Shown here piece after piece: positions 6,498 to 59,595 of a stretch of DNA of 64,000 nt. The stretch lies in NCBI RefSeq assembly GCF_026151205.1, contig NC_087082.1, positions 4,588,908 through 4,652,907 of the forward strand, given 5' to 3'. How positions within the stretch are numbered: the stretch's first letter is position 1; each line of letters opens with the position of its first letter. A program made the translations under genes and the position numbers. The notes below the pieces were generated by a model. That model was not told the origin of the DNA. It searched no databases and was given only the letters and a program-made list of their open reading frames with translations. Source of the stretch: Bolinopsis microptera. Taxonomy: Eukaryota; Ctenophora; Tentaculata; Lobata; Bolinopsidae.

Positions 6498-7218
6498 TTA
6501 TATACAGATCAGGCAATGTACAAGTTAAAACGAATTATGTAAATAGATTACAGATTTGTCAAATTACCTGGATATTTATTTTTGTCTACATTGTACATGA
6601 ATTAAAAACACTGAGCACATTATCAGATCTATTAAACACTTACCAAGAGCATAGAGCACATTGTCGTCTTCAGTCCCATCCAGGAGGGGAGCAGCTAGGC
6701 CATGTCCACGTCCTTTCTGTGGAGGCTGGAGAGAAGGGAAAACCCAGGCACATGGAATCCACTGGAAAACCCATCGCCAGTCCATAAAACTAGGGAATGA
6801 TGGGGACATTATACTCTTAAACATTATATCAAAAGTTTGTTCGCCATGACACCTGATGTGTCCACATCCCGATTTACCACAAACCCCAACTTACTGCCGC
6901 CACTTCCTTCCCCAAATCAGGAATTAACATGTGAACAATCAAAACCCTGTCTACCGAGGCTCCATTGTTCCCACCGTATTCCAAACCATACTTTAGACAC
7001 GGAAATTTTATCCCTAACTTAATAGATATTATTATCAGCCATTGGTATATTTATTCGACTGAGTTTTTAGTGTGGTGACTTGGATTGCTTAAATAGAACA
7101 ATACAAAACAACACAAGCTGGTCAACCAAGAATAGTGATAGAGGTAGCCCTGGTGGTTGCATAATCCTTACGGTCTGCCCTCTCCAAAATCAGCCTGCTT
7201 ACCCATTGTACCATTTAG
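6498..7218. other. non-coding, with a short GC-rich island
   Basis: No gene supported. Bases about 6650-6790 are richer in GC than their surroundings and open in two frames, but neither product shows a known motif. No ORF1 for the adjoining minus-strand LINE was recognised here. Confidence 0.4.
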
Positions 7219-8828
7219 CTTGTTATAAGTAAGCTTAATAATAGCAAGGGTACGTATTATTCTCCTAGGGTCCTCAAACTTTTAGCTACCACTTTAAGTC
7301 CTTTACTGGCTGATATTTTTAATAAATGTGCAAATGAAGGTTATTTTCCGAAAGAATTAAAAGCAGCAAAAATAATTCCTTTGTATAAGAATAAAGGATC
7401 TATTTCTGATATAAGCAATTATCGTCCTATTTCAATGTTACCTTTTTTTGCTAAGATTTTCGAGAAGTTAATACATAAAAACGTATCTGATTTCTTTAAT
7501 AAGCACAATCTTTTCTGTGATAATCAGTTTGGTTTCTGCAGTAAGCACTCAACCTTTCATGCACTTGTTTCAGCAGTAGAAAATCTTCATGATGCTATCG
7601 ATAATAAGAATTTTACATTAGGTATATTTATAGATTTTTCCAAAGCTTTCGATACAGTGCGGCATAATATCTTGTTAGAAAAGCTGGAGAACTATGGTAT
7701 TCGAGGAAATGTCATTAAATTATTAAACAGTTATTTATCAGATCGGTTTCAGTATGTTAGCTATTATATGGGGGATTCGAAAGTTGTCTCTTGAAAATAA
7801 CCTGTGGTATTCCACAGGGGTCAGTGTTAGGCCCCCTGCTCTTCATTATTTTTATCAATGATTTGGCAAATATTTGTGAGTTAGCTAAATTTATCCTCTT
7901 TGCAGATGATTTAAACCTTTTTCTTCAAAATAAAGACCGAAATTTACTCTACAAAAATGCTAATGAGGTATTATCAAAGATTCACGACTATTGCTGCTTA
8001 AATAGGTTAATCATTAATTTTGAAAAATGCTGTTTTATGGAATTCGGAAGTAGTAAAGTTCCTAAGAATCAAAAGTTTGTTGGAATGCTTAACAACCAGT
8101 TTAATCAAGTGAATAAGTGTAAATTTTTGGGAGTCATTATTAATTCTAATTTAACGTGGAATGATCATATTACCAATGTAATAACGCAAGTTTCAAAATC
8201 TTGCGGATCACTCTACTCCATAAGTTCTATAGTGCCAGCCAAAGTGTTAAGACAAGTATATATTTCACTTGTTCAACCATATTTAATGTATTGTATACCA
8301 CTGTGGGGTGCTGTTTTTCACCATCCTTTGCTGCAAAAACTGTTTGTGTTGCAGAAAAAATGTATTCGTATTGTGAGTAGAAAAACAATAAAGATTGATC
8401 ACAAGTTTCAACATACGAAACCAATGTTCTTTCGTTTGAAATTATTAACCTTGTTTAACTTATTTACATACTTTACTGGATGTATTGCAATGAGGCTACT
8501 TAAAGAACAAATTCCTGTTGATGTTTATCGCCGGTTTAGCAAGTCAAGTAGATCATGCAGACTTCTATATCCTAAATTCTCAATGTCTAAGACCAAGAAT
8601 AGTAATTTTGTTTTTAATGCATCCAAAATTTTAAATTATCTCCTTGATCATGATGTACCGTATCATATTTTGTCAATTTCACTATTTAAAAAGAGATTTA
8701 AGAACCATTTGCTTCATATACAAAACCTAGGGCTAAATGGGGATCATGGATGGCTACCATGTAATCACGATATCTTCTCGAATGTATCAATTTCATTTTT
8801 TTTATTTTTTGTGTTATTTTTTACTTGA
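7219..8828 (+). pseudogene. 5'-truncated LINE, RT domain with one frameshift
   Basis: Similarity to LINE RTs begins near 7255 (PRVLKLLATTLSPLLADIF). The RT motifs are NYRPISMLPFFAK (about 7418), FIDFSKAFDTV (about 7630), CGIPQGSVLGPLLF (about 7803) and FILFADDLNLF (about 7890). The first part is in frame 1 and the rest in frame 3; the switch falls at 7785-7800, just before the PQGS motif, so the copy cannot make a full RT. The endonuclease is absent, which fits normal 5' truncation during insertion. The C-terminal domain runs to a stop near 8828. CR1/Jockey-like, distinct from the minus-strand copy at 3495-6497. Confidence 0.88.
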
Positions 8829-9216
8829 GATCTCATATCATAAAATTTTACCATCGCGATACGGGTATTAATTTACCTCCCAGCGGTGAGACACCGCTTC
8901 CCTCCATCGCCATGTTTGAAGCTCTCCCATCATCTGTTCTACTTCAGAGGGAAGTGATTTATTTTATATTTTAAAATTGTTATTATTCCAGTATAACAAA
9001 TAAATTTTCTAATCGTGTAAAATCGTGTAAATCGTGCTTGATTTCAGAGGTGGCTATTGAGGGTGTCTAGGCGTCCCTGGATGCCCTCAAATTATTATCT
9101 GGTGGCTGGTGCTTGAAAATAGAAATAGTAATAGTATTTGGAAATATCTAATCGTGATATAAAGCTTCTTATTCTACTCAAAGGTTTGAATGTAAGCGCT
9201 TGCATGATCTTTGTGA
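8829..9216 (+). mobile_element. 3' UTR and short-repeat tail of the preceding LINE
   Basis: After the RT stop comes an AT-rich 3' region. Near 9010-9040 it ends in short direct repeats of AATCGTGTAA, typical of the microsatellite-like tails of CR1-type LINEs. From there to 9216 the sequence has frequent stops in all plus-strand frames. Target duplications were not identified. Confidence 0.55.
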
Positions 9217-12200
9217 AATCATGTTGTAGGGTGTCCAATCCTCGTTTGGACACCTCAGTCACGCACCAAGACCGCAGCAACCCCCAACCGTACAGCAAAG
9301 GATATAGCAAAGGACCCAGCCAAAAAGGCCCCGAAGAAAGCCACCAAATCAGGAGAAACCTCGAAACCGGACATCAGGTATGATAAATGTCCCTGTGGAA
9401 CTAGTGATAAAACCTCATGGATTATTGATTGTACCTCTTGCCCTCAAACCTGGCACAGCAATTGTTGTAATCTAAAAGGTATTTCCGAACAGTTTGTTAC
9501 ACAGATAGAGGATTGGCTCTGTCCGCTTTGTTTCAGTGCCCCTGGCGTGACCATCCGTAACAACCAACAGATCGAGACTTTACTTCTCAATATGTCTAAT
9601 CTGAGGAATAAAAACATTGATCTTGAAGAAACTGTCATGAAAATGGAGGAGAAACTAACTTCGCTGATATCCAACACAAACGATCTCGGAGCTACCACCA
9701 AGACCATTTCTGAGAGAATACTCAAGCTAGGAGACATTGAGCTACATATTCAACATCGGACCCTCCAAGAAGGTCAGGTTGATGAGAAACTTAAAACTAT
9801 GAAAAATCAGATCACTGAGCTTCAGTCTAGTATGGATGACCTTAAGAAATCAACTGCCTCCTCAAGCAGCCCTCAAATCACCCAAGCACCATCAAGCTCT
9901 CAGCCCTGGGTCCATCCTAGTCGTGTCACACCACCCACCCACCCACTCACCCACCCACCCACAGTTGTCCCTGAACCCACAACTACCATAGAGCACAATC
10001 AGAAAAGCTTCACCGACCTCAAACTAGAATTCATCAATGAAGATACAGCCTCAAATATCACCACATCACTAGAGTCATTGTCATTTGTGTCTGAATCAGG
10101 CCGCTCAACTGTTGCATTCGGAGCTCCTTACACGTATACAGGTTCCAAATCTGGTGCCGATGCAACCCCAATCCCCCTGGTGCTTCAGCCGATACTGGAG
10201 AAAATCAATGTCCTACAAAAGGAATTATTCTACGAACAGCACCCCACCTTCAAGTCACATCCTGAGAGGCATCCTTCACCTCCTGTCATCAATTCATGTC
10301 TCATAAATAGGTACGAAGGCCCTAATAGTTCACTTCCCAGCCACTCAGACGACGAGCCCACTAGTATAGATGTCGAATCATCCATTTTCACACTGTCCCT
10401 CGGCCAAGAATGCTCCATCCAGTTCCTTGACAAAAAGTCTGGTGTCAAGTCTGACCTAACATCCACCCACCGATCACTCTATCATATGACAAGAAAATCA
10501 CAAGACTTTTTCACTCATTCAATTCCAGAAGGTAACGTCACCCAGGACATCAGATATAGCCTCACGTTCAGATCAGTTAACTGGAAGAACAAAAACTCTA
10601 CAATCTTGATAGGAGATTCAAATACAGGAATGCTCAAGTTTGGGACTAATAAACGTAATACATTTGGTGAACTCATGCCTGGCCTTAAAGAATGGGCGCC
10701 TATAATCAACAACATTGACCCTTACAGCTGTCAATCCTACAGCAATGTTGTTATCATGTGCGGGATAAATGATATAAAGCAACCTCAAAGTAACGTCAGA
10801 AGTGTATGTAGTTCGCTGTTAACAAAAATAAAAGAAATTAAGCTGCTGAACCCTAAATGTTTTGTTTATGTTTGCCCGCTGCTTCCTACTAAAATTGCTG
10901 ATTTGAATAGAAAAGTTAACTTGTTTAATGAACTGCTGACGAACGGTCTTACATCTATGAGTTCTGGTGTTCAGAGTGTGCAAGGTTTTAATGGCTTTGC
11001 TGATCATTATGGCATGTTGGTCCATCAATTGTCCAAGACAGTTGATCGACAAAACAGGCCTGACACGCTTCACCTTAACGAACTAGGTGCTAGGGTCCTT
11101 GCTGGCCTAATTAAACAAACCATATTTTCCAGGCTCCACCGAGGAGTTGATAAACGAAGAGGACCGACTAGCAGAGCTGACGGAAAGACCCTTCAGTTCA
11201 GTTGCCAGAGGAGGAGGCGGGTACAGTTACCAGGTATGGTAACTTTCTCAAATAAGGAAAAATGCAGTCACTGCCTTAAGAGCTTATGTTTAGGTCAAAA
11301 ATTTGTTGAATGTTTTAAATGTAATTGCATTATACATGAAAAATGTTTCAAAAACTCTGAAGCAACCGTGATCAACTCAAATTACTTTTGTAATCAGTGC
11401 AAAGCGCTAATCCTTAAACAGTACAACCCGTTTAAAGATATGATTAGTAAGTCGGATAACAATAACAACGACCCCTTGATTCTGAAAATGTCACAAGTTC
11501 TAGAATATTGTAAGCCTTACTCCACCAACAAATTTAATAACGAACTTAGTGCCGATCTTCATAAAAATGGTGGCTCTTTCTTCCTGAATATCGACGGCAA
11601 TAAAAGCAACTTCGACCATCTCATATCTGAATTAGAGTGCCTCAAACACAATTTCCCTATCATAGGCCTTGCCGAAACCAATATTAGCCCAGAAGAGAGT
11701 TCCGTTTACCCTATTAATGGATTCAATAGTTTCTACCAGACTACAATGCATAACAAATCGAAAGGAACGGGCGTTGCAGTTTATGTTCACAATGCTTTTA
11801 ATGCAGTCGTTAATGTAGATGTATCAAACGTCACCAGTAATTTAGAAAGCCTCTTTGTGACTATTCATCAAGAATCTAAAACTATAAACGTAGGAGTAAT
11901 CTATAGACCCCCTAGTGGAGACATTGACGAGTTTCTCGCTGAGCTACAAGTAATTATGGGTAAACTCCCAAAGTTAAATGTACATGTAATGGGTGATTTT
12001 AATATTAACCTCCATAACGGCAATAGAAGATGCACACAAGAATTAGAAAACATAATGCTCGGATTAGGGTACTCACCAACGATATCTATCCAAACACACG
12101 AAAAGCCTGGATGTAAACCATCCTGTATTGATAATATTTTCACTAATGAAATCGAAAGCACGTTGTTTACAGGAACGTTGCAACTCAATGTTTCTCACCA

Positions 12201-14052
12201 CCATGCCATCTTTCAAATCAATAGTTGTCTTAATTTTGTAGCTGATGAACCTAAACTTAAACACGCACAATATTACGACTATAGCACCTCAAATGTAGAC
12301 GCCTTTCTCACATCAATTGATAATGAACTACATACCAATCCTCCTGAAAACTTCAGTAGTTTCTGCACTACTTTTCAGAAGCACCTAGACGAGGCATTCA
12401 AACTTGACAAACCGAAATTATCTAAACGTAACGCTTTGAACAACCCATGGATTACTAGTGGTATTGTTACCTCAATTCGAACGAAAGACTCGCTCTATGA
12501 TTTGTGGAAAAAGTCTCAGAAGAAAAAATGTTTATTGCTAACTAATAATAATAATATTAAACGCGAGGAGTGTAATTGCCTCACTTGTATGAATATAGCA
12601 AAAAAATACCTTGAATATAAGGATTACAGGAAGCATCTCAAGGTACTTATTGACCGTGTCAAGAAGAATCATTATGCAGGTAAATTAACTGACTGCTCTG
12701 GTGATAGTAAGAAAACGTGGGAAATCATAAACACTATTCGTGGAAAATCCAGGCGTGAAATAAAGCCATGTTTTATCCTTAACGATAAAAAAATAATAAA
12801 TCGTAGGATGATTGCTAATGAATTCAATAAATATTTTCAGTCGATTGCATCCAAACTAAATGAAAATTATTCTGAAGATTATATAACCCTGGATGCAATT
12901 CCCTCATTCTCAAACTTCTTACCTAAAACCTGTGAGTCAAGTATATATCTAAGTGATTGTACACAGTATGAAATTATAGATATTATTAATGAGTTCACAA
13001 ATGGTAAATCTAGTGACATTCCAATTCACGTTATAAAAAAGTCTGCTAGAATAATATCTCCCTTTTTAGCCAAGCACTTTAACCATTGCATGCAACAGGG
13101 GATATTCCCAGATGAACTTAAATTAGGAAAGATAAGTCCCATCTATAAAAAAGATAATCAGGAACTATTTGAAAACTATAGGCCAATATCAACCTTACCA
13201 GTATTTGGAAAAATTTTAGAGAAACTTATTTATAAACGTATGTACAGCTTCCTAATTGCTAAAAGAATCATTTATGAGAACCAATTTGGATTTAGAAAGG
13301 GTCACTCAACAAGCCACGCACTGAACTTATCTGTTAGCCATATCGAATCACACTTAAAAGACAGGAAACACGTTCTTGGCATTTTCATTGATTTAAGTAA
13401 GGCTTTCGACACGATATCTCACGAGAAGCTTTTATTCAAATTAAATAATTACGGAATTAGGGGCAACGCACTGAATTTGATAAAAAGTTACCTGTCAAAC
13501 CGGAGCCAATATGTTCACGTCTTAAATGAAAACTCCGATAAACTTCCTGTTGAGTGGGGAGTTCCCCAAGGCTCTGTTCTTGGTCCCTTACTATTCCTCC
13601 TGTATATAAATGACCTATGCAACGTATCTAATAAAGGCAAGTTTATCTTATTTGCTGACGACACTAACCTATTCGTTTCTGCAGACTCGAAAAAAGACGT
13701 TTATAATGTAGCTAACGATATTCTTTCGTCTATTTCTAGATACATGAAATGTAATCTACTACATATTAACGCTAAGAAGAGCTGTTATATGTATTTCTCC
13801 CCAAACAAACGTGTAAATGAATCGTCTACATGCAGTACACCTGATGATTTAAATCTCTCCATAGACGGCTCCATAATAATACGTGTTAAAACAACTAAGT
13901 TTCTAGGTGTGCTGATTGATGATAAACTGAACTGGAAACCTCACATCGAATCACTAAATAAGAAACTAAGAAGTGCTTGTGGACGTATTTACCGCATAAA
14001 AAAACTGTCTACCTATAAAACTGCACAAGCAGATATACCACACACTATTTGA
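9217..14052 (+). CDS. single-frame PHD / SGNH esterase / zinc finger / endonuclease / RT polyprotein
   Basis: About 1611 residues without a stop. Domains in order: a C4HC3 PHD finger at 9391-9534 (CPCG, DCTSC, TWHSNC, LCPLC); a charged coiled-coil-like region at 9547-9850; a Pro/Ser/Thr-rich linker; an SGNH-hydrolase (esterase) domain at about 10600-11115 with ILIGDSNTG, VVIMCGIND and DTLHLNELG as the Ser, Asn and Asp/His blocks; a second zinc finger at about 11260-11403; an APE endonuclease at about 11577-12220 (GLAETN, IYRPP, MGDFNINL, SHHHAIF); and an RT with ENYRPISTLPVFGK, FIDLSKAFDT, WGVPQGSVLGP and FILFADDTNLF. PHD and esterase domains are known from ORF1 of CR1-like LINEs, where ORF1 and ORF2 are normally separate. 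Here the ORF1-type end runs straight into the ORF2 zinc finger. An ATG at about 11236 marks where ORF2 would start. No ATG is seen before the PHD finger. Confidence 0.88.
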   Translation, partial: NHVVGCPILVWTPQSRTKTAATPNRTAKDIAKDPAKKAPKKATKSGETSKPDIRYDKCPCGTSDKTSWIIDCTSCPQTWHSNCCNLKGISEQFVTQIEDWLCPLCFSAPGVTIRNNQQIETLLLNMSNLRNKNIDLEETVMKMEEKLTSLISNTNDLGATTKTISERILKLGDIELHIQHRTLQEGQVDEKLKTMKNQITELQSSMDDLKKSTASSSSPQITQAPSSSQPWVHPSRVTPPTHPLTHPPTVVPEPTTTIEHNQKSFTDLKLEFINEDTASNITTSLESLSFVSESGRSTVAFGAPYTYTGSKSGADATPIPLVLQPILEKINVLQKELFYEQHPTFKSHPERHPSPPVINSCLINRYEGPNSSLPSHSDDEPTSIDVESSIFTLSLGQECSIQFLDKKSGVKSDLTSTHRSLYHMTRKSQDFFTHSIPEGNVTQDIRYSLTFRSVNWKNKNSTILIGDSNTGMLKFGTNKRNTFGELMPGLKEWAPIINNIDPYSCQSYSNVVIMCGINDIKQPQSNVRSVCSSLLTKIKEIKLLNPKCFVYVCPLLPTKIADLNRKVNLFNELLTNGLTSMSSGVQSVQGFNGFADHYGMLVHQLSKTVDRQNRPDTLHLNELGARVLAGLIKQTIFSRLHRGVDKRRGPTSRADGKTLQFSCQRRRRVQLPGMVTFSNKEKCSHCLKSLCLGQKFVECFKCNCIIHEKCFKNSEATVINSNYFCNQCKALILKQYNPFKDMISKSDNNNNDPLILKMSQVLEYCKPYSTNKFNNELSADLHKNGGSFFLNIDGNKSNFDHLISELECLKHNFPIIGLAETNISPEESSVYPINGFNSFYQTTMHNKSKGTGVAVYVHNAFNAVVNVDVSNVTSNLESLFVTIHQESKTINVGVIYRPPSGDIDEFLAELQVIMGKLPKLNVHVMGDFNINLHNGNRRCTQELENIMLGLGYSPTISIQTHEKPGCKPSCIDNIFTNEIESTLFTGTLQLNVSHHHAIFQINSCLNFVADEPKLKHAQYYDYSTSNVDAFLTSIDNELHTNPPENFSSFCTTFQKHLDEAFKLDKPKLSKRNALNNPWITSGIVTSIRTKDSLYDLWKKSQKKKCLLLTNNNNIKREECNCLTCMNIAKKYLEYKDYRKHLKVLIDRVKKNHYAGKLTDCSGDSKKTWEIINTIRGKSRREIKPCFILNDKKIINRRMIANEFNKYFQSIASKLNENYSEDYITLDAIPSFSNFLPKTCESSIYLSDCTQYEIIDIINEFTNGKSSDIPIHVIKKSARIISPFLAKHFNHCMQQGIFPDELKLGKISPIYKKDNQELFENYRPISTLPVFGKILEKLIYKRMYSFLIAKRIIYENQFGFRKGHSTSHALNLSVSHIESHLKDRKHVLGIFIDLSKAFDTISHEKLLFKLNNYGIRGNALNLIKSYLSNRSQYVHVLNENSDKLPVEWGVPQGSVLGPLLFLLYINDLCNVSNKGKFILFADDTNLFVSADSKKDVYNVANDILSSISRYMKCNLLHINAKKSCYMYFSPNKRVNESSTCSTPDDLNLSIDGSIIIRVKTTKFLGVLIDDKLNWKPHIESLNKKLRSACGRIYRIKKLSTYKTAQADIPHTI

Positions 14053-14151
14053 ATCACACCTTACGTTCGCCATCTCAGTATGGGGTGGTGTCTCTAACCA
14101 AGTTATCAACCCTGTATTCTTAACACAGAAGAGATGTATTAGAATAATTTT

Positions 14152-15033
14152 TTTCCCTACTCTTGCCGAAGGCAAAAAGATCGTAGGGAATAAGTAATCG
14201 GGTTTGGATATATGAGGTGGCCCGGCGGTCCTACGATGTCGACAAAAGTCTGCTCCTTCGCAATATAGACCGCTCCCCTATAATTATGTGTATAAAAGGA
14301 GTCTATTTTGCGCGCGCGACGCCAGTTATGTGTTATTTAATTACAGGCATAGCAACCAGTTTTTGGTGCTTGACGACTGTTACACACGGATCAATCATAA
14401 ATTTAAGTGTTATTTTGGTGAGACAAGCTTAATTAATTACCGAGTGATAAAATTCAGCAAGTCAAAACAAATAAAATTATGATATCAGCTGATAAACTCG
14501 TGGCTGATTATTATACAGTTAATCGACACTGAATGGTAAAAAGCATAGAAATACATAGTTGAGAACAGATGTTACTTTACATTTACATTCAAGGAGCTAA
14601 TATCAAGATTGCGGTATGCTTTTAAAGAATCGTATATCAAATAAAAGGCTCGAAAATCAATGGTGCTATAAGTATAGATGTGTCGAGTAAGCATTATAAT
14701 GTATTAGTTTATATTAGATAAAAATAATAACTAATACGAGGCAGAATATTTTATTACAGTCACAAGTCAATAAAGTTGGCATACGATGCAGTAATATGAC
14801 GTGACCGGTGACATGATACGCATCGTTATTGCTATTAACACGAAACAAAACCGCGCAAAGTATGAAATGATCTACAACCAAACCACATACACAGATCGAC
14901 GGCGACACCTCAGATGCGCGCAGAATTTTTCAAGTTCTGCACGCCTAATATAATATAAACGATTATCACGTGCGCCAAACACCACTCTGGGATACAATAA
15001 AGTAGAACAATAACATTGTAGGCAGTAGGGAAA
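14152..15033. mobile_element. non-autonomous DNA element nested in the LINE
   Basis: About 880 bp separating two in-frame halves of the LINE C-terminal coding sequence. The ends are inverted: TTTCCCTACT at 14152-14161 and AGTAGGGAAA at 15024-15033. Removing it restores the LINE frame, with FESHL...CIRII joining the tail that starts at 15034. The duplicated target cannot be fixed because the site is a T-run; 2 or 3 T's fit. The interior has no coding frame of note. Superfamily not assigned. Confidence 0.78.
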
Positions 15034-15657
15034 TTTGATCGTGCGTGGTGTTACCGCGGCGAAATTCTTGTTGGAGATGCAAACTCATACCAAAACAAAT
15101 TCAAAACATGTGCTCGTTCTAGACCTATTCAATGTAAAATACTGGGTAAATATGAGTCTAATGTTAATAACTCTGTTAATCCATGTATTAAACCATGTGC
15201 AAAGTGTGTCCGCTCTAAATCGGTAGTTCATAATAAACTTGTTAGACCCTTATGTTGTCAAAAACTAGGAGCTGAATTCTATTCCAAGGAATCAACCAAA
15301 CCATTATTTAACAGTCATAAACTCCTTACTGTTCATAATCTTTACAAACTTCGTACTATAACTGAACTTTTTAAAATAGTGAAATATAGGGTACCCATAT
15401 CTCTCTACTCTTTACTTAACATGTCTGAACTGAGGGATGACCGTCTAATACCACCAAAGCCAAGCCATAACTTTATTTATAAATCTTCTTGGCTTTGGAA
15501 TCAATTCAAGGACTCCAATCCACAGAATAAACCTGACTTTGTGAACACATCCTGTAACTCAATCAAATCAAGGCTAAACCGATCTCTTCTAGATGCCCAA
15601 AGCAGGTTCGATAATGAGTGGCATAATGACAACTTTAACAGTTTTGGACCATGCTAG

Positions 15658-17462
15658 ATTATTGATAAAAACGTGGAATTTATGTAAACAAATACTTAAT
15701 TACTTAAATATTGCCGTTTCCGTACGGCGCTATACGTAATATATGTTAAAAGCGCGCCGCAGCTACTCCCTACCTCAACATTTGCGCGGGTTTCTTAAGC
15801 GCGCACGTACGTTTATTCTTGGCCGTTAATCAGACCCATGACATAACGCTATAGGTGGCAGTGACTGTAATTTTCTTCAACAATTACTGAATTATCCATC
15901 CATAAAGTGATTTACAAAATGACACCTAAACCTCGTGTTTCGGTGTTCACTTAAACGGTACTTGGCGGCTGAACTGTGGTGTCTGACGTTTGCAGCTAGA
16001 TCGGACTCTGCATGATATTGTATTAGCAAATTTGTATAGTGTATAATTGTTTAGTGTTTATAATACTCTGCAACCTGGTAGCACGGCTGACACAAAAACA
16101 AAATGTTGGCCTGGCTTGTGCATAACCAAGTAAATAACACGCACTCCGATAAAAGCCGTCTGGAGAAACTCTGCAAAATGTTCATTGTAGTCAACGGGCA
16201 CAAAGAAGCACTACTAGCAATTGTGTCCTTTACCCTCCTACATAATTTGAACATTTTTGTGGCTAACTCATTGAACAACATCTGAATTAAAATGTGTCTA
16301 GTATTAAAAGATTCAGCAAGTAATTTTTTCATGTACGCTGTACACTGTAGTTAGTAAATCAAATCAAACTTTTTCGATCAGCCGCTGTACTGAACCAGTG
16401 TTGCACTATAGGTAAAAATTGTGTATATTTTGTTCATTTTTGAGTGTAAATTAATTTATTAATTTATCACAAATTATTTTATTATAATATGACCACTTAT
16501 GTGAAATGGTTATTTTGACTTTAAATATTTGAACTAAATATGAATTGATTGTGGGTATAAAATAAAATTTGTTTTACTAAAAATTTGTTTTACTAGTTTT
16601 AACTTTTAACACACAGATAATTGCAAATGCTACAAAGCACATCATTGCATCAACGTACTGTAAATTTATACGATCAGGGTGTCATACTGCACGGCTGAGA
16701 TTGTACACGTGTGTTGTCCTATTTCACTCATTTTGTAAGGTTCCATCTTTGTTTGTTGTATGTTGTTACACATTGCATACGCAACATGTGGGCGTATGCC
16801 AGTATATGCATGGTAAGTAAGTAAGTAAGTAAGTAAGTAAAGATTATGACATAACATCATCACAAGTGTCTACAAAATATCATTGCACTAAATAGAAAAA
16901 TAATTTAAATAAATATATTTTTCCATCAACATTAATAATTTATTAAATTCAATTCTATTAATTAATAAAATCTAATGCATTATCTATAAATAATTCATTA
17001 ATACTTCCCAGTGGAATAAAGATTTACAAAACGCTTCTTCGCCACAAAAGGATGGAACCAAAGATATTCATTATGTTTCTCCTTATTGCTTAAATAACTA
17101 GGTCCTTCAATTTTCCCTAAAACTTCATTCGTTCAAACATTCCAAAAATAAAATCTAGGTAAACTATAGGTAAAAATATAATATTAATCATAAGTTAAAA
17201 TGTACTAATCTTTGTATTCTAAATGGGGAAAAAGAAGAAACATTGTCAGTCAGTCGAGAAAATTGTCAGTCAGGCTATATGGCAGCTTTGTAGATGTTGT
17301 GACTATGCTAGTAGTGGTCCCAGGCTTGCGACTGGAATTGCGGTGTTAAATCGATTTAAAGGTATACCAACGATCCACCTCCCACTTGTTGTTTGGTACT
17401 TAGCATTAATAGTGTCAGCTGTAGCCATTTCTAAAATCATTTACACTGTTTTTAGAAATCAT
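15658..17462. other. non-coding stretch with a TAAG microsatellite
   Basis: The first part is probably the 3' UTR of the LINE. No gene is supported. A (TAAG)n run lies at about 16814-16840. A GC-richer patch with GCGCGC motifs lies near 15750-15810. A 92-residue open frame at 17223-17501 has no recognisable motif. Confidence 0.5.
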
Positions 17463-20101
17463 TTATTTCTTAAATCCTTCCAATCTAACTTTAAAGCTTA
17501 AAACTGTCGAGCAGTTCTTGACATCTGAAGGGAGTTTGTTCCAATAAGGAATGACTCGCTCCGAAAAAAAAGAAGACTGGAGATTCTTTACTTTAGTTAC
17601 ACTCTTACTACATCTATTGGTTGAAACAAGAGTAAGACCAGTCACCAGATCTGCTCATTCTGAACAAACCCGATCCATATTCAGTCAAACCACTTGCACT
17701 AGTTACTTTAAAAGCTTTAATAAGGTCCCCACGTATTCGCCGCTCTGCCAGCGTTGTCAAATTGAGAATATCCAGTCTACGGCTGTATGGAAGAGTACCC
17801 ACCTCATTAATAAGATGGGTAAACCGCCTCTGGACGCTCTCCAGCTCCAAAACAGTCCCCCAACTTCCATGAGCCGCAACTGGATTCCACAATTGGACAC
17901 AATACTCAAGATGAGGTCTTATCAAAGCTTCATAAATAGCTATCATTACAACCTGTTCTCTAATAACTAAGTTCCTTACAATCCAGCAGATCATCGATTT
18001 GCTTTAGAAATACATGCTTTTATCTGTTCATTCCAAAGCAAAGAGCTATGGGTAATAACCCCCAAATCCTTTTCCTGTGCAGATACTTTTAGTTCTACTC
18101 CATTAACAATATAGTATAAGTTAGGATTATTATTCAGATTAATATGAACTACTTTACACTTGGCATGATTGAAGTTTAAGTGCCAAATACTCTCCCAATT
18201 TTCGAGTTCTAAAATATCATCAGATACACTTCCATGGTTAGCTGCATTACAAACTAACTTGAGATCATCTGCAAATAATTTAATCTTATTTTTAACAATG
18301 TCAGGTAAATCGTTTATATATAAAGAATAAATAGCAAAGGACCCAATACTGACCGCTGGGGAACACCAGATAACACGTGTTTCACCTCAGACCATTGTAC
18401 TTCTACACAAACCCTCATGGTTCTGTCTGTCAGAAAGTCTTTTATAACATCTAAAACTTTTCCCTTGACCCCAAACCCCTCCAATTTAGATAGAAGTCTA
18501 AAGTGGGGGACTGCCGACTGTGTCAAAAGCCTTACTAAAATCAAAATACAAAAGATCGACAGGAGCACATTCGTCTAAAATATCAAGAATATAATTATCA
18601 AATGTCTCTAAGAGATTAGATAGACAAGATTTACCCTTCACAAATCCATGCTGATGCTTTGAAATTCGTTCTTCTAAAAACGTTAGTAAATGTGCCCTCA
18701 CCAACTTTTCATACACTTTGCACAAAATACAAGTTAATGAGACAGGTCTATTATTTAAGGGATCAGATTTCACACCCTTTTTAAACAATGCTACAACAGA
18801 TGCTGTCTTCCAAATGTCAGGCAGGACTCCTTAACAAATAATTTAGTTACAGCTTCAACAAACTTTTCATCGTATGCTAAGGATTTCAACAACTTTGGAC
18901 GAACGCCATCCGGACCAGAACTCTTAAAAACATTAAGCTTTAAAAGCTGCTTCTTGATATCAGAACTGCTAATTTCCATATTATCAATGACCTCTTTGTT
19001 ATAACTTAAACTCTCATTTTGAGGAAGAGGGCCAGGTGGTTCACGCACAAACACAGAACTTAAGGCACTAGCATGTACATCAGCTGACTCAGATGAACTA
19101 TCTGTGCGTGTACCATCCCCTCTATCTAAAGAAACAACACTTGATTTAACTTGACGTTTATTACGCAAATACGAGTAAAAAGATTTACAATTCTGTTTTA
19201 AATTAGACGTAATCTCCTTTTCATATTTTACTTTAGCTTTAATTTCTGCCACCTCAAAAATACGCTGCTTGCTATTTGCACACCTCAAGTTAATATCCGA
19301 AGGATTAATATCAATTATATTGTTATGTATCATATGATTTTGTAAACATTGGCCGGTGTACCAAAAACCGGTCCCCAAACGAAGCAGCTGGGACAGCTGC
19401 AGCAACAGACTCCAATTTACCATGAAGTTCAACCCACATATCTTGAACATTATTTGTACAACTATAATCCCAGTCAATATTATTCATACTAAAGTTAAAT
19501 AACTCTTCTGAGGAAATCTTACCCCAAATAGGCTTCAAAATCTTTTGTCTGGGACTTTTGTTAGTATTGGGCGAAACAACCAGTTCGACAAGTATCCCAA
19601 CATGATCACTTTTGCCAAGCGGAGAAACGATCTTACAACCGTTGACAAGAGCATCATTTGTATACAAAACATGATCAAGAAGACTCTCCTGGAGAGTATC
19701 TTTCAAAAGCCGTCTTCTGGTTGTTTCGATAGTAAAGTACCACGTCAAACCACTGTCATTAAATAAATCAATATACTTTTTTTGAATCATTAAAACCTGA
19801 CTCTTACTAGAAATACCACTATTTACACTACCAGTTTCCCAAGATACATTAGGTAGGTTAAAATCTCCAATGATAATGGTTTCAAAAACATTCTTTTCAC
19901 TAGACATGTTCTTGATGCAAGATAATAACACATTTTTCTGTTCTAAATTCAAAGAAGTAGACCTATAAATACAACAAATACTAATCAATCCACCAGAGGT
20001 ATTGACATTAATAGCTAAAGAATCTGGTGCTTTTAAAAATGAGCTCACTAATGAAGCATTACAACTGTTTTTAATATAAATAATAGAACCTCCACCTCCA
20101 C
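17463..20101 (-). pseudogene. decayed L2/CR1-like LINE, 5'-truncated in the endonuclease
   Basis: Read on the minus strand, the copy starts abruptly at about 20101 inside the endonuclease (GGGGSIIYIK), then ICCIYRS, IIIGDFNLPNVSW (about 19880-19860) and GKSDHVGI (about 19600). The RT follows with NNRPVSLTCILCKVYEKLV, HQHGFVKGKSC, LLYFDFSKAFDTV, SGVPQRSVLGPLLF and KLFADDLKLV. The C-terminus has EYCVQLWNP, SVQRRFTHLI and TLAERRIRGDLI, a pattern typical of L2/CR1 ORF2 ends. Several frame changes (near 19400, 18790, 18510, 18310, 17990 and 17630) and stops make it non-functional. The RT box reads GVPQRS where GVPQGS is usual. Its 5' truncation point directly abuts the esterase fragment at 20102. 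Confidence 0.88.
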
Positions 20102-20557
20102 TTCAGCAATGTTGTTATCGTTTGTGGTACCAATGACCTCCGGGTAGAAAACCTTAGAGGAGAGAATGAAATCCATCAGCTGGTTGACATTCTCCACTTA
20201 AAGATTCAACAGATAAGAAAGCTCTGCCCTAGTACCAAAATATTTGTCGCAGCAGTCCTCCCATCCAGATTGCCTCAAATGAACAAAAACATTATGACCT
20301 TCAATCGGCTTGTTGGAGAAATGTTGAGTGTCAACTTCAACCAGAGTGTGTGGCACCTTGGAGTTGGTCACTTCTTAGATAGTAGGGGACTCCTTGCCAC
20401 CAACCTGACCAGAGGTGGTGATGATATTCATTTAGGAGTTTATGGTATTACTAAATTTGTGAGATGTGTGAAGCATTGGGTGTACGTGAGAGAGAGGCAA
20501 GAGCGGACAAGACGTGGAAAACACAACCAGTCAGTGGGGTCTAACAACCCCACTTAG
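20102..20557 (+). pseudogene. LINE ORF1 remnant, SGNH-esterase domain
   Basis: An open frame that starts without an ATG at a hard junction with the minus-strand LINE. It encodes the second half of an SGNH-esterase domain: FSNVVIVCGTNDL corresponds to YSNVVIMCGINDI in the 9217 copy, and DDIHLGVYGITKF holds the Asp and His of the catalytic pair. The N-terminal GDS block and any PHD finger are missing. It stops with TAG at 20555-20557. The ORF2 start follows five bases later, a spacing that suggests coupled reinitiation. Confidence 0.8.
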
Positions 20558-20562
20558 TAAAA

Positions 20563-23500
20563 ATGATTATGAAAATGATTAAAGATGTGTGTGAGCCATG
20601 TAGTAGATCTATTAACATCGGACAACCCTTACTAGAGTGTGAAAACTGTAATAATGCCATCCATACTAAGTGTTTCAAAGCAGCTAAATATTCATGCAAA
20701 AATGGACTATGGATGTGCTGCGAGTGTGCCAGTTCTGCAGAGGAACGGTACTGTCCATTTCCATCTGATGAGGAATCTATTGATTCTGATAGATTCTATG
20801 ATAACAGAAACCAGGAGGATGCCTTAATTGCATCATATGCCCTTGTACTTGAACGTTGCCGTCGCTACTCTAAATCCGAATTCTTAAATGCAATCAAGCA
20901 GCTCAATTCCTCAAAAAAATCTATGTTATCAACTTTATTCTACAATATAGATGGAAATGCATCTAACTTTGATAGCTTCCTAATTGAACTCAAAAGTATA
21001 GGGCACTCGTTTGATATGATTGGTCTTGCTGAAACCAATACTGATCCTGCACAGCAGGGCCTGTACCAAATTCCAGCATACACAGGATTCTATCAAGAAA
21101 CATTGGCAGGTAAGAAAAAAGGCACAGGCGTTGCACTCTATGTATCTGACCATTTAAACACTGTGGTTTTAGAAAACGTGTCACTCTGTACTACAAATAT
21201 TGAGAGCCTCTTTGTTGAAACCACAGATAGTGCAGGCTGCAAAATTGTTCATGGAGTCATTTACCGACCCCCCCCCCCAATGGCTGCTTTGATAGCTTTT
21301 GTGAAACCCTTGAATTACTTGCAAAGCAGCTAAATGGGAAAACTGTCAATTTGTTGGGAGACTTTAACTCAAACATACTTAATATTTCTACCAGTTCCCA
21401 GCTCTTTGAGGATACATTCTACAGAAATGGCTTTTACCCGACTATCTCCATTGCAACACATTTTCGTCAAAACTGTAAAAGTTCCTGCATCGATAACATT
21501 TTAACAAATAAAATTGAGAATATAGTCTTATCAGGTGTTATTGAGGAACGGCTTGGTGAGCATGCCCCTATATTTACCTTCACTTCAGTAGAGACCCCTC
21601 GCAATACAGAACCTCAGAAACATGTCCGCTATTATGATTACTCGAGTTCCAAATTAAAAAGCTTTGTAACTGAACTTGAAGTGAAGGTAAACCAGCTCAC
21701 TCCTTCAATAGAATTTGATGAGTTTACGGCATGTTTTGACCAGACACTTGACAAACACTGCAAACTGGAGGTACCAAAAGTGACAAAAAGAACTCCCAAA
21801 CTTAACCCATGGATTACAGACAGTATCATCCAGTCTGTAGAAAGGAAGCATGAACTGCGTAAGGATTGGTCTGACACTGTTACTAATAAGAACCCTGGTG
21901 GTAATATATTGCTCTACCAAGTATTTAGTGATTATCGTAGGATGCTCAAAGCTATCATTAAAGCTGCCAAACGTTGGCATTACTGTAACGAAATTCTAAA
22001 CAACTGTGAAAACAGCAAGAAAACCTGGCAAATTATTAACGAACTCAGGGGCAAAAAGAAGAGGCAAACCAAGCCCCCATTTATCATTGATAACCAAAGA
22101 ATAGTTGATAGAAGAGCAATTGCTAATGGATTCAATGCTTGGTTTGTCTCTATTGCACCAAAGCTTAATGAGACACTGAATAATCTATCTAATGGCCTGC
22201 ATATATTACCCATGAAAACTTTCTATGACTTCCTGAACCCAAAAAATGAAAAAAATATTAGGCTAGAAGATTGCTCCTCGAACGAAATATTGAAAATCAT
22301 AAGCGAGTTCGAAAATGGTAAAGCCAGTGACATTCCCATATAAGTGTAGTAAAAAAGTCATCTCATGTAATTGCACCTGTATTGTCGAATTACATCAATA
22401 TCCTTATGACCCAAGGTATATTTCCTGATGTCCTGAAAACTGGTAAAATAACACCTGTATATAAGAAAGGTAACCCAGAAGAAATCGAGAACTACCGTCC
22501 TATCTCCACACTGCCCGTCTTCGGTAAGATCTTTGAAAAGCTCATATATTCTAGAATATACGGATTTGTTAGCTCCCAGGGAGTTATATCGAAGACACAG
22601 TTTGGATTTAGGAAATCTCACTCTACATCTCATGCAGTTAATTACTCTGTAGATTTAATTACGAAATCTCTTAAACTTAAGAATCATGTTTTAGGAATAT
22701 TCATTGACCTAAGCAAAGCTTTTGACACCATCGATCATTCAACACTTCTTATAAAATAAGAGGGATGTGGAGTGAGAGGAGTTGCAAATAACCTCATAAA
22801 AAGCTACTTGACAAACAGGCAACAATACACCGAAGTTGTAGGAGAAAAATCAGATACCCTATCTATTCAATTTGGTGTCCCGCAGGGTTCAATTCTTGGA
22901 CCTCTCCTATTTCTTCTTTATATGAACGACATCACAAACAGTTCTAAACTAGGATCATTTGTTACCTTTGCTGATGATACCAATATATTTGTTGTCGGCA
23001 AAACAAAACGTGAGGCATATGAACGAGGAAATGAGCTTCTGTCATCATTACAGTCTTATATGAGAGCGAATGAGTTACATATAAACATGTCCAAGTGCTG
23101 CTACATACACTTCAAACCCACCATGGCAGGTTCTAAATCAGAGATTTTATCACACCCTGAAGTTGTACTAACTATAGACAACTTTCCAATCAAAAAGGTT
23201 TCATCCGCAAAATTTCTGGGTGTTATAATTGACGAGAACCTATCATGGGAAGATCACATCAAAGCTCTTAAGCGAACTCTAAATCATTCCACATCCACTT
23301 TATGTAGACTCCGCTGCTCCCTTCCAGAATTTCTACACCAACAATTATATTATACCCTGTTCGAATCACATCTTTCCTACTGTATATCTGTATGGGGTGG
23401 GGCAGCGAAGCAACGTATTTAAAGCTCATTATTTACTGCTCAGAAGTACTGTCTCAGAGTACTATTTGGTGATAGACTGGCGTACCTTGATAAGTTTAAG

Positions 23501-44854: not shown

Positions 44855-45829
44855 CTGGGGCATGAAATACCCTTACATCAAAAAATGCCCTCTCTGAAGC
44901 ATTCCAAATCGATCTTGCAGAAATGTCCAGCCTAGCTTGGTCTCCTAGGACTGTTCCCTTATAACAATAGCCATTTTCGTATTTGAGACTTGTTACTTAT
45001 GACAGACACACTTATATTGTGTGATAGACACCCCAGTTGGATGATTTTAGAGGATACGCCTACAAAATCTCTAAAAAAGTGTGTTTCTAGAGCAAAACGC
45101 GCAGTTTTGCAAGTACTGTAGTTAAGTTTTTCAAAATTGTCCCACATTCAAACAACGATTTTGCGCCCCCCTAAGATGGCGTCCCCCGCACAGCAGGGTT
45201 GGCGGGGCCCTTTGTTTCGCCACTGCCACCCCCACTCCCCCTGTTTTGACCTTATATACAATACTCATGATACTGTACTTGTTCAGCATGGTAAGCTTAA
45301 AGTATTATTATGAGTATCTATGGTGTGCAGAAGTTTTGAACATTAGTCAAATATCTATAACTAGAGGCTAGGGACTGGGTGGCTGTTAAATCCCACTGTC
45401 CCCTAATCTAGGGAGATAGCTTAGGATCCGTTATATCTGTGCAAAGTGACACATCTGTGTAATGTCTCATGAATTTTCATAAAGCCCCCCTAGGTGTACT
45501 TGATTCAAGCCAAATTAGCTTTAGGAACCCCCCCCCTCAGTCTGCAAATGTAAGGGCTTGCGTCACAATAGCCATTCTTCGTGACAGACACACTGAAAGT
45601 TGGGGTTTCTACACAATTCGCTTAGTGCACATCTAGTGTACTGTATATTAAATTGGGCACTCAGTGGCCGGGTTATAAGCCCAAATTATGTATGTAACTG
45701 ATTCCCCGCCCCCCCCCCCCCCTGCGGCCCCTCCCCAGTCCCCCCTTTTTGTTATTGTGACCTTAAATACAATACTTATGATAAATTGCATTTATTCAGC
45801 ATGCTAAGCTTAAAGATGAAACCCCTGTA

Positions 45830-46924
45830 ATGGACCACCAAAAAATTCTTGCATTCTTACTCATCACACTTTTTACATCTAGGTACATCTATATCTCTCT
45901 GAAAGGTATCATGGGAGAGTATGATGAAGAGTTTGTACCGAATGAGGATCTCTCAAATGTTATCCAGAGAATGTGGACAGAAGATGACAACAGAGCTGTG
46001 GTTGGCGACGATCTCGTAATCAACATGGGGAAGCGCACTTTCACCCGGGATCAGTCAGAAGATAGGTCATCAGAGCCTCTTATTGAGTATGTCAATGAAG
46101 AATTGTTCCAGAGAGAAAGCTACAAAAGATTCTATGATTTGCTTGATAACTATGAAAGTGCTGTTGGGGTTGAAGAGGTCATGACTCATATGGAGATCAT
46201 TGAAATGAAGAAGTTTGTTGATGTAGTTGTCAGTAGTCGACCTATGAAAATAGCTCAGGAGTATCTGGTGGAGAAGAATTGGGCACCAGCTGACGAAGAA
46301 AAGTTCAAAGATTGGTTGTGGGATGTTTGGTTCACATTGTACAAGCGTGGTCGAGGAAGAGGAAGATCCACTGGAGATTCATCTGGTTTTGAGCATGTTT
46401 TTGTTGGGGAGATCCGAAATGGCTCAGTCATTGGGTTCCACAATTGGGTTCAATTCTACAGGTTTGTTAATTGTCTCTGTATTTACGCAGTATACACCCA
46501 TACTTGTTATCAACCGTTTTACACTTGAATTCCAGCAAATGAGTATGTTTTGAATTGTGATTAGAATTTCTTTTATTTCAGACTAGAGCAGATGGGCAAA
46601 GTCGATTATCGTGGCTTTATTGGAGGGAAACGAAAGCAAGATGAAGAATTTATGATCACAATACAATTCTCTTGGGACGAAGATCTTGCTGATAATGATG
46701 ATGGGGCCGTTAAGGCAGTGGGTGGAACCATGCTTGGCACATCTCCAGAATTCGAGATGGCAATGTATACCTTGGCATGGGTTTATGGAAAGGAGAATGA
46801 TGTGGTCAATATTCCAGTTGCTATCGAGGATCAAGAGTTTTACTTGATTGCTCATACTTTCAAGGGGAAATACCTGGGTACATGTTTCACCTCCCGTACA
46901 CCCCAGGTGGATAGAAGAAGATAA
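45830..46924 (+). CDS. ENDOU: EndoU-type uridylate-specific endoribonuclease
   Basis: Two exons join cleanly: 45830-46461 (donor GTTTGT) and 46582-46924 (acceptor TTTATTTCAG). The product is 324 residues, or about 297 if the start is the ATG at 45911 ([14 protein letters not shown]). EndoU enzymes cut RNA at uridylates, leaving 2',3'-cyclic phosphate ends, usually with Mn2+ or Ca2+. The family signatures are present: [29 protein letters not shown] (His189), GFHNWVQFY (His204), DYRGF, and [13 protein letters not shown] (Lys307 with the following Thr/Ser), matching the His-His-Lys catalytic set of XendoU. The N-terminal hydrophobic run ([19 protein letters not shown]) could be a signal sequence. 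It could also be intron, because a polypyrimidine tract and TAG precede 45883, so the true start is unresolved. A polyadenylation signal lies at 47316-47321. Confidence 0.92.
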
Positions 46925-55780: not shown

Positions 55781-58700
55781 TTAATTGTAGTACATTTTAT
55801 TTGCTTTCAAGAGATCAAGCATCGGTTGAATTGTTTCTAGAATCGCTTTCCCATTTTCACCCAACGTTCGTATATCCCTCATGGCATCAGTAATTGCTGT
55901 TTCGATATTTTGTGCAACAGATTCAGCTATATTCTCGCCGCCTGAAAATAGGAATCGTGAATTTTAAAAGAACTGAAAATTGACTTAATTTGTGAGTAAA
56001 TATGTAGTAATATTAAGCAAGTTGTTAAAAGGTACCCTTTAACCGTAATGAGGCTGACACAATCATGTAATACTTGATGTGGGCCTAGTTAACGATTATG
56101 CTCAACATCGCCACACTTTTGCTACATGACCGATACCTATGCTTACGAGGCTTACTTCGATCGGAATTCAAAGTCGAAGAAGAAGAAAAAACAACAACAC
56201 TTCACAAAAAAAACAACAACACCGCACTTCATATGATTTATTCTTTAGTATTTTTGTTTTTTTAACAGCACGGCAGTTCATGTCATTGTCATCTAAAAAT
56301 TCAATATCCTTACCTCTATAATTATCTGCTCCGAATACATCTTTGTATTTAAATGTAAAATCAGATCTGTTGGCAACCAGCTGTAGTCTGATTACATTGG
56401 TCGTTGCGAGATCCGATCTTATCAACATATCGTTAGCCTTCTCGTACATATCCACTGTTTTCCTCATTGCATTTACTTGATCAGAATCATCAACAAATAA
56501 TGATGTGTCAGAGATGTATCGACAAACATCGCCAATCATTGTCAAATAAAATATCTGAAATATAATAACATTATACATACTGGGCTTATCATGAAACCTA
56601 TTTTTCCGTCCATGCCGGTTTTATGACCGTACTTGTAGGCCTTCCGTGAAACTTGAAAATTAATTGATACATGGCTTATTATATTTTATAGATTTAAATA
56701 AAAGAAACGGTTGTGGCCTTCAGTCCGTCAATACATGCAAAATGAATGGAAAATGAGTTTGTCTCACATCTGCCTCGATTGCGTCTCGACCTGTGTAGCT
56801 GGTGGCTAGTGTTGCTTGCTGACTTTTCACTTTTTGTTTCTGAGTTATTTGCTTATAATTATATTATAAACCATTTTACGTCACACTATAAATATAAATA
56901 ATCCGAACTAGCTTTAAAATTATCTGATTTTATCTGATCTTACCGATTTTAAGTAAGGCGTCAAAGACAAGAGACTACTCCGCAGTGATTGCTGTTTTTC
57001 ATTCAACATGATCTTGTAACCTGCTTCAATCACAATGCTGGCAAGCATGACCGTGCCTCTTATATTCACAATACTATTTACCCCCTTTACTATTTACCCC
57101 CTTTACTATTTACCCCCTTTACTTTTATAACCCTTTATTATTTTTCGGGCATTAAGACTCATCGAAAGTAGTTCAGCAGGTATATTTAAGTTCAAATCAT
57201 TCTAATTCAATGTTAAAGATGACAGGAACAAGAAATAGTTATGTGGAGGTTTTTAAGAAATTTGCGCAAAATACGCGCCAGCATGTTATACGAAATTCGG
57301 TAAAAAACCCAAAATTGCCATATTCAGGTGCCTTAAAAACCATGTTAAAATTGAGTTAGAGATCTGAAACTTTGCAGGGCGTCTAGACGTTGACCAAATC
57401 GACTGTAAAAAAATTCGTGTTTCAGGAGTATCGGTAAATGGGTTTTCTGGAACCCCTGTTTTACGATAGATTGTCGTGATACATATATTCAGGGATAGAC
57501 GCTTTGCCAGTCAAATGTAGTCAATTGTAGCCTGAATTTAAGTGTCCGGAGATTCAAAAGTATAAAAGATACAGCAATTTCCGACCACAGGTCTTAAAGA
57601 TAATTGTTTACACTTCAGTTTCAATTATATCAAAAAATAATTTAACGTCATCATCACCACTTGATGACGTCATCAAATTAAGTGTTTTTAAAACTTGATT
57701 TTTGACAAAATAACAGCTTTTCAAACTGATTTTACACCATTAAGGAGTAATTTTATTCAAAATCTGAGGACATTTTCATATTAGATAATTGTTCAAGCAT
57801 TCTGAAAATCTACCGGAAAGTTTCCCTACTTTGCTCCTTCATAAAGATATTTGCCATTGAAGTTAGTGCTTTTTTGAAGAATTATTTTAAAAACACGTCA
57901 ATTTTGCGATTTAGTATTCTCTGGTGTTGGGCTATCCCTTGGGTTGTGGAGCTCAGTTCTGCTTCCTATAGGTATAAATTGTGTATTAGGCTAGTTTTAA
58001 AGTTAAAAATCTAAAAGTTGCACACGTGGGGACACGCCCAAATTGATTAAAAATTGCTAAAATCACTGAAAATTGCTGTGTTTACCATTTTCTGTAAACG
58101 TTGGTGTGCCGTTGTGATTACAGTTCTTCTTGAAATACTTTGAAACTTTGCATGCTTATCAAACTATATATAAAACACCAACACGCAAAAATTTACGGCG
58201 ATTCAATATTGGATGCGCACGCAACGTCCGCTCATAGTTTGCACGTGCGAAAGGTGATAATTTTGCTCATTCGTGATTTCGATTAAATTCTGCTTTACCA
58301 CGACAATTCAATGTCATTATATATAAATTTAATGCCAACTTGAATGAGTATAAAGTGGCAAATTCAGTCAGTGATCGACCGATATGCTTACCCAAACACA
58401 AGGAAATGTTTTCAAAGGAAAAATTTCGAAATCGTTGAAACTTCCTCCTTATTAATGAAGATATCAGTTTATATTTCGACTTTATAAAGTACCCTGACAT
58501 TAATCAAAAAGCGATGATATTTGACCAAAACCCATAATCATGGGTAGAGTGGACCGCTGCCAGTGTCTCTCTTTCCCAAACAAAAGGAAATGATATTAAT
58601 TTGATTGACCGTTCTCAAATGCAAAATGATACCGAGAATGAAATCGGTCGCTCGCTTTTCCCATTCATTCACGGCTTACGAATTGTAATAAGTTTCGATT

Positions 58701-59595
58701 GATTACATCAATCAGATGCTGTAAAAATCTCTTTGGGTTGCGTTCGGGTCGATACCTAGTATTTCGGGGTAAGGGTGGTAGTTATTACTTATTGAATTAG
58801 CTGAAGTTTATCGAATCTTTTTTGCCGAGTACAGCTGCCTTTGGGTAGTTCTTCTTAATCTATTACAATTGTAAATGAATGGGAAAAGCGAGCGACCGAT
58901 TTCATTCTCGGTATCATTTTGCATTTGAGAACGGTCAATCAAATTAATATCATTTCCTTTTGTTTGGGAAAGAGAGACACTGGCAGCGGTCCACTCTACC
59001 CATGATTATGGGTTTTGGTCAAATTACAGCTACAACTTTATTGTATTCTGTGCCGTCGAGATCTTGCGAACAAGCTGCATCCATTACCTGACAAAAAGCA
59101 AGATATTTGTTTTAAATCCGTTCACAATCCCTCAGCAATCAGCAAAGTTTCAACCGCAACCCTAGTGGCCTAGCGGGTCTATGACGGACACATTGTAATA
59201 TATTAATACACATTTTAAAATAAACTCAGCCTCGTATTCTATTATGCGACATATTTTTCATCAAAAGTGAGATTTTAAACAAGATTGTTGAATCGTCTGT
59301 TACCTTATCCCTGGCGTCAAGCATGGCAAGGTAGGGCTTCAATGCATCTGAAACAAAAATATTTCACTTCGATTCACCACTATGTTGCCGAGGATTTATA
59401 TTTTATAATAACAACTATAACTTCTATCGAGATAATGTGGGTAAATATAGGATGGATATGCGGGTAATGAGATGCAATACATCTCATTTCTTAATACAAA
59501 ACACAAATAGACGACTTACCAAGATCAACAGCTGGTGTAGGTTGAGATCCAATGACTGCGACAGAGAGCAGGGTTATCACAAAACGGTTCATCAT
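55781..59595 (-). CDS. divergent 14-3-3-like protein with predicted signal peptide
   Basis: Exons on the minus strand: 59595-59520, 59347-59304, 59087-59028, one ending at 56944 (start unresolved, about 57030), 56554-56314 and 55941-55781. Exons 1-3 join in phase, and the last three join in phase. Exon 1 encodes MMNRFVITLLSVAVIGSQPT, a good signal peptide. Exon 3 ends DLDGTEYNKVVA, like the ELSNEERNLLSVA helix of 14-3-3. IFYLTMIGDVCRYISD matches VFYLKMKGDYYRYLAE. TNVIRLQLVANRSDF matches the PTHPIRLGLALNFSVF block, with Pro-His lost and Asn-Phe-Ser altered. The last exon resembles the C-terminal helices. The part equivalent to YKNV..RR.SWR, which binds phosphopeptides, is not found between 57080 and 58500: an exon is missing from this model or has diverged. 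Normal 14-3-3s are cytosolic phosphopeptide adaptors. A secreted form without the basic pocket would have another role. Confidence 0.7.
57061..57122 (+). repeat. 17-bp tandem repeat (CTATTTACCCCCTTTA)
   Basis: Three to four near-perfect units directly upstream (minus sense) of the fourth recognised 14-3-3-like exon. On the minus strand this is a purine-rich tract where a splice acceptor would be expected, so expansion here may have displaced or obscured the acceptor. Confidence 0.8.
57661..57676. promoter_or_regulatory. perfect palindrome containing TGACGTCA
   Basis: TTGATGACGTCATCAA is a full cAMP-response-element-type site within an intron of the 14-3-3-like gene. One site alone is weak evidence for regulation. 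Confidence 0.3.
58519..59024. mobile_element. 506-bp MITE with about 155-bp near-perfect inverted arms
   Basis: The arms at 58519-58670 and 58875-59024 are almost identical in inverse orientation, starting ATTTGACCAAAACCCATAAT, with a unique centre of about 200 bp. The high identity implies a recent insertion. It lies in the intron of the 14-3-3-like gene, only three bases past the splice donor of the third exon. No certain target duplication (flanks ATA and TTA, or TA). Confidence 0.85.

Follow-up and report, generated by a model that had tools for sequence, protein, structure and literature searches.

14-3-3 proteins are signalling proteins that normally work inside cells and are highly conserved in eukaryotes. 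A locus on the minus strand of a 64,000-nt stretch of Bolinopsis microptera DNA (hereafter the window, to which plain position numbers refer) had been described in a sequence-only reading as a secreted 14-3-3 gene with an altered binding pocket, which raises the question of what this gene encodes and how much of a 14-3-3 it still is. In order to answer it, the gene model, a second copy elsewhere in the genome, the similarity and intron positions shared with canonical 14-3-3 genes, the putative signal peptide and the pocket residues were considered together. Two copies of a gene that joins the back half of a 14-3-3 to a secretion signal seem to be present in the genome.

The minus-strand exons proposed earlier are present, and both peptides quoted for the conserved 14-3-3 blocks lie in a single one of them (56314-56554). 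The gene runs from 59595 down to 55781, limits that are exact, as a start codon stands at one end and a stop codon at the other. In the window copy the coding sequence is found in six pieces with standard splice sites, corresponding to five exons of which one is split (Table 1); the exons are labelled 1, 2, 3, 5, and 6, "exon 5" being the fourth coding exon of the intact copy. A separate exon 4 (57058-56944, GTVMLAS...) was considered and rejected, as its residues are transposon-derived and exon 3 is continuous in the other copy.

Table 1. Coding pieces of the gene and the inserted element in the window copy (positions within the 64,000-nt window)
Feature	Position	Strand	Remark
Exon 1: start codon, signal-peptide-like N-terminus MMNRFVITLLSVAVIGSQPTPAVDL, phase 1 end, GTAAGT donor	59520..59595	-	
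Exon 2: DALKPYLAMLDARDK	59304..59347	-	Preferred reading: end = canonical intron 2, helix C-D loop, phase 0
Exon 3, left part, as far as the transposon	59024..59087	-	
Transposon, presumably Helitron-like, ~1,994 bp, inside coding exon 3	57030..59023	.	Uninterrupted site in L001
Exon 3, right part, helix D equivalent	56944..57029	-	Phase 0 end directly before IFYL = canonical intron 3
Exon 5: helices E-F-G equivalent, significantly 14-3-3 part	56314..56554	-	
Exon 6 (last): helices H-I equivalent, stop codon	55781..55941	-	Phase 1 start, as after canonical intron 4

Protein searches recovered one near-identical second copy at C1:23054240-23056057, in which exon 3 is continuous. Its frame is open over 221 codons, while an open frame of 220 codons would arise by chance, at the local non-coding composition, with a probability of about 8e-8. 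Consensus tests on the splice sites were passed by all four donors and by 3 of the 4 acceptors, the failing one, ATTATATTTCAG, having 8 pyrimidines vs. the 9 required; the background pass rate in a 5.3-kb stretch was ~3.0 and 3.6 sites per kb. The codon score of the C1 copy (0.005 per codon) lies above that of non-coding sequence (mean -0.37, maximum -0.21 in 500 overlapping draws) and below that of ten known coding pieces (0.12-0.59), which also served as the training set. This intermediate score is that of a coding sequence that is fast-evolving or relaxed. The product of the C1 copy has 221 residues (about 199-204 once cleaved) and a pI of about 4.7.

The window copy does not read through, because the ~1,994-base transposon splits exon 3. 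The insertion lies between A and T and left no target duplication, and four further copies of the element are likewise placed between A and T (5/5 including the window, by eye). The element carries 154-nt inverted repeats and 16-nt tandem repeats, and from these features (A/T insertion, no duplication, repeats) we take it to be Helitron-like. A genome search with 1,401 bases from inside the element gave at least 67 matches (40 of 2,100 candidates scored), of which at least 20 other than the window copy span almost the full query with 97-99% identity, indicating that the element is young. Reading on from exon 3 meets a stop just inside the element, and skipping of exon 3 leaves the frame intact. 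Splicing of the transposon as an intron was not adopted after hand inspection: the GT donors close to the end of exon 3 are in phase 0 and no frame-restoring AG was seen near the right end of the element.

The two copies are embedded in a larger duplicated block, reaching on C11 from window position 51777 to past the window end and on C1 over 23031002-23060411, with pieces 85-98% identical; this extent is a lower bound, as a neighbouring piece contains a run of N. The pair may be a real duplication or a misplaced haplotype. Further features were recorded in the window and genome. Several LINE-type reverse transcriptase frames occupy positions 3495-23422, two of which run to 1,000 and 1,611 codons (by eye), and a XendoU/EndoU endoribonuclease gene is found on the plus strand at 45785-46924 (PF09412, E 4.6e-56 for its first exon) with, by eye, a hydrophobic stretch near its start, possibly a secreted nuclease. 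An aequorin search of the genome gave 55 matches; open frames make up many of them and form tandem arrays (C13:11082451-11094340, C5:17012730-17026401, C1:21999412-22006929, and C3:3415490-3427363), in which the photoprotein-like frames have equal or nearly equal scores and a spacing of mostly about 940-1,030 bases; the one photoprotein taken was closest to the ctenophore photoproteins berovin (1.2e-121) and mnemiopsin (2.4e-121). The matches listed for aequorin and for the transposon all fall on contigs C1 to C13, and a COX1 search gave no match.

The kinship with 14-3-3 was borne out by the profile search of the assembled protein. The spliced C1-copy protein matched PF00244 with 42.1 bits (cut-off 33.2, E 9.6e-11) over residues 74-158 of 221, and 14-3-3 was the sole Pfam family matched; neither the first 88 residues nor the last exon, each scanned alone against Pfam, matched any family. 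In a whole-genome search with PF00244, exon 5 was one of 22 matches (E 4.1e-7), which were grouped by hand into 8 gene loci. Profile alignment with hhalign against six 14-3-3 sequences (five from the same genome and human zeta) covered 66 columns with E 7.4e-07; the query alignment consisted of the C1 protein plus a hypothetical exon-skip product, of which one sequence was used. Of the columns invariant across the six sequences, 10/15 are kept by the candidate in the aligned block (hand count). Against PDB chains, phmmer with an E limit of 1 listed 121 distinct sequences, and the best 60 of these 121 were all 14-3-3 (best E 8.8e-05); in 42 of these best 60 rows the best stretch extends to residue 198-199, into the last exon, the rows not being independent, because they are mostly near-identical human constructs. 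Identity to canonical 14-3-3 proteins is about 30% in the best region, the strong divergence noted earlier, and 31-33% over helices E-G in the comparison with the canonical gene C8b and its neighbouring D-I exon block C8c. When exons 2, 3, and 6 were tested singly with shuffle tests and pairwise comparisons, they were not clearly similar to their canonical counterparts and stayed near noise: exon 2 showed no significant similarity by its own sequence, and exon 6 reached its best p of 0.013 vs. zeta, compared with p 0.006 vs. a non-corresponding exon. By sequence, only the part around exon 5 is significantly 14-3-3; assigning the remainder depends on intron positions, reading frame, and splice sites.

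Of the candidate's four introns, three agree with C8b introns 2-4 both in their order and in their phase. The C8b introns fall at KK|VTE, TK|VM, and SQ|VFYL, all phase 0, with a fourth, placed by eye, after EIGG in phase 1; the candidate has ARDK|VM (phase 0), KS|IFYL (phase 0), and YRG| (phase 1), and its exon 3 measures 48 codons in the C1 copy vs. 49 in C8b. The first intron, after the signal-peptide exon, is in phase 1 and new relative to C8b. These matching introns equate exons 3, 5, and 6 with canonical exons 3, 4, and 5 (helices D to I), and in place of canonical exons 1-2 (helices A-C) stand the signal-peptide exon and a 15-residue stub. Introns 1 and 2 of C8b are both in phase 0 and shuffle tests could not decide between them; equating the exon 2/3 junction with intron 1 (KK|VTE) was set aside, as an extra internal deletion would be needed and intron 2 (TK|VM) fits the exon lengths. 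No helix A-C exon was found near either copy in the PF00244 search or in a search with the N-terminal part. The candidate and C8b thus share the last three introns, the helix E-G sequence, and a similar exon 3 length, but C8b has helices A-I, an intact THPVRL and basic pocket, and a model without a signal-peptide exon, while the candidate lacks helices A-C, has a new N-terminus, and carries about 9 extra residues in its helix G-H loop (hand count). The canonical C11 and C1 (epsilon-like) genes have other intron sets in their automatic models.

Just behind C8b lies a further locus, C8c (C8:512649-514277), with exons for helices D-I only. Its last two introns stand at the same places as those of C8b, and its exon 3 starts with VM in phase 0. 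Among PF00244 matches and by eye, neither a helix A-C exon nor a signal-peptide exon was seen in the 0.9 kb between C8b and C8c; one short ATG frame there has a donor-like site, but in the wrong phase. C8c may be a partial duplicate of C8b or its alternative 3' half. Since this block has the same exon set as the candidate, these exons can be copied or employed together. Two other 14-3-3 matches were noted, namely a full-length 14-3-3 at C8:507996-508658, in a single uninterrupted frame beside intron-bearing 14-3-3 exons, which looks like a retrocopy, and a weak match at L002:782-910 beside the C11 14-3-3 (E 0.69, stop codons inside), which was left as chance.

Both copies could be decaying pseudogenes of a once-functional 14-3-3-derived gene, an explanation that we consider unlikely while granting it real weight. 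In its favour are the transposon inside exon 3 of the window copy, the codon score lower than those of known coding pieces, and the divergence between the copies, which is equal in exons (7/664 aligned sites) and in non-coding sequence (24/2,533). Six of the 7 exon differences are non-synonymous (hand count), and relative to C1 the two halves of exon 3 in the window copy show a 6-base gap and a small cluster of changes. The comparison gave no signal of constraint between the two copies, with little power to see one, because copies only about 1% apart offer too few changes. Against decay, the frame of the C1 copy runs uninterrupted from its start codon to its stop codon, which is highly improbable by chance at this composition, and its splice sites are intact despite only about 30% identity to 14-3-3 in the best region.

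The first exon had been read as encoding a classic signal peptide, and its sequence looks like one. It has a positive start, a 13-residue stretch (residues 5-17) with a mean hydropathy of 2.39, and possible cleavage sites; later 17-residue windows reach at most 1.27, so that the protein has no second strongly hydrophobic segment. A rough signal-peptide rule, which asks for a positive start, a stretch of hydrophobic residues, and small residues where cleavage would occur, was passed by 8 ATGs out of the 616 that have 25 open codons, counted over both window strands; exon 1's own two ATGs are among these 8 and are the sole passes among the 281 on the minus strand. Exon 1 is identical between the copies (0/76 sites differ), which is uninformative because the intron behind it is identical too (0/172). 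That this exon belongs to another transcript, and that the 14-3-3-like exons encode a cytosolic protein started elsewhere, appears quite improbable. An in-frame ATG inside exon 2 would offer such a start, and the exon 1-exon 2 junction is itself predicted; yet exon 1 ends in phase 1 at its GTAAGT donor, a strong acceptor of fitting phase follows 172 bases on, the joined frame is open, and within the limits of both searches neither copy has a helix A-C exon nearby.

A 14-3-3-related protein outside the cell has precedent in animals. According to one study, 14-3-3 epsilon has no signal peptide and is released by unconventional routes (PMC11140979), and another reports binding of extracellular 14-3-3 to aminopeptidase N peptides that carry phosphate (PMC7939381). 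The candidate resembles such extracellular proteins in its predicted location and differs from epsilon in its predicted signal peptide and its truncation. Among the open-access papers listed, titles and abstract openings mentioned no 14-3-3 relative with a signal peptide and nothing on a secreted ctenophore 14-3-3, both being weak evidence of absence. Of the earlier label "secreted", it is the signal-peptide-like first exon that is supported, secretion itself being a prediction.

A full 14-3-3 consists of nine helices, of which A-C form the dimer face, and K49, R56, R127, and Y128 make up the phosphate clamp among the residues of the pocket. In the candidate's gene model the nine helices are incomplete, as no counterpart of canonical exons 1-2 was found beyond the 15-residue stub, and in the intron-anchored model only R127 and Y128 of the clamp are kept. 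With three MAFFT alignment modes and human zeta numbering, R127, Y128, R167, and N173 were retained throughout, while K120 is replaced by T and H164-P165 by N-V in all three modes, E180 by D or K, and N224 by M across the modes. Nothing in the intron-anchored model matches the helix C residues K49, R56, and R60; at these three positions the unconstrained alignments put K, D, and K, taken from residues that are assigned here to other parts. The suspected change in the Pro-His pair of the THPIRL block and the suspected change or loss of basic pocket residues are supported. Another strongly diverged 14-3-3 of the same genome (C3:11746194-11746837) resembles the candidate in being without the HPIR residues, but its helix A-C sequence is preserved, including the K, R, and R positions of helix C, and its automatic model has no signal-peptide exon. 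That the candidate is still a phosphopeptide-binding 14-3-3 in the secretory pathway, its missing basic residues supplied from elsewhere, is very improbable: R127, Y128, and N173 are kept in all three modes and extracellular 14-3-3 binds phosphorylated aminopeptidase N peptides (PMC7939381), but helices A-C with K49, R56, and R60 lack a counterpart and K120, E180, and N224 are changed in all three modes.

Judged from its sequence, the gene derives from 14-3-3 and falls short of a working 14-3-3. The name "14-3-3 gene" would overstate the case; "14-3-3-derived gene" is the better name, because helices A-C (dimer face and K49/R56/R60) are absent from the model, only the exon 5 stretch is significant, and the window copy is broken by a transposon. 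We propose that a duplicate of a C8-type intron-bearing 14-3-3 gene was stripped of its initial coding exons, which cover helices A, B, and most of C, and acquired a signal-peptide exon, a phase-1 intron, and the 15-residue stub. Its product would pass into the ER and leave the cell as a protein built largely of helices. With helices A-C absent, neither the 14-3-3 dimer nor the usual phosphopeptide clamp would be expected, and both were presumably lost, so that the role would most likely be that of a monomeric extracellular ligand or a binding scaffold acting through another surface. With a probability of roughly 0.55, the gene encodes a helical protein of 14-3-3 descent that is conventionally secreted and has ceased to read phosphopeptides, its splicing, secretion, and role being predicted. 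This reading is supported by the profile matches, the shared introns 2-4, the C8c block, the open C1 frame, the codon score, the splice sites, and the signal-peptide test; weighing against it are exons 2, 3, and 6 near noise, the codon score below known coding sequence, the missing constraint signal, and the one broken copy. A more tentative suggestion is that in a ctenophore the helix D-I exon block of a 14-3-3 gene became, through exon shuffling, a conventionally secreted monomer that does not read phosphate. If true, it would mean a new route to an extracellular 14-3-3 fold, with helices D-I viable without the dimer half; it would give a measure of how far the 14-3-3 fold is re-usable, and it would provide a natural test of whether the D-I half folds and binds without the dimer half.
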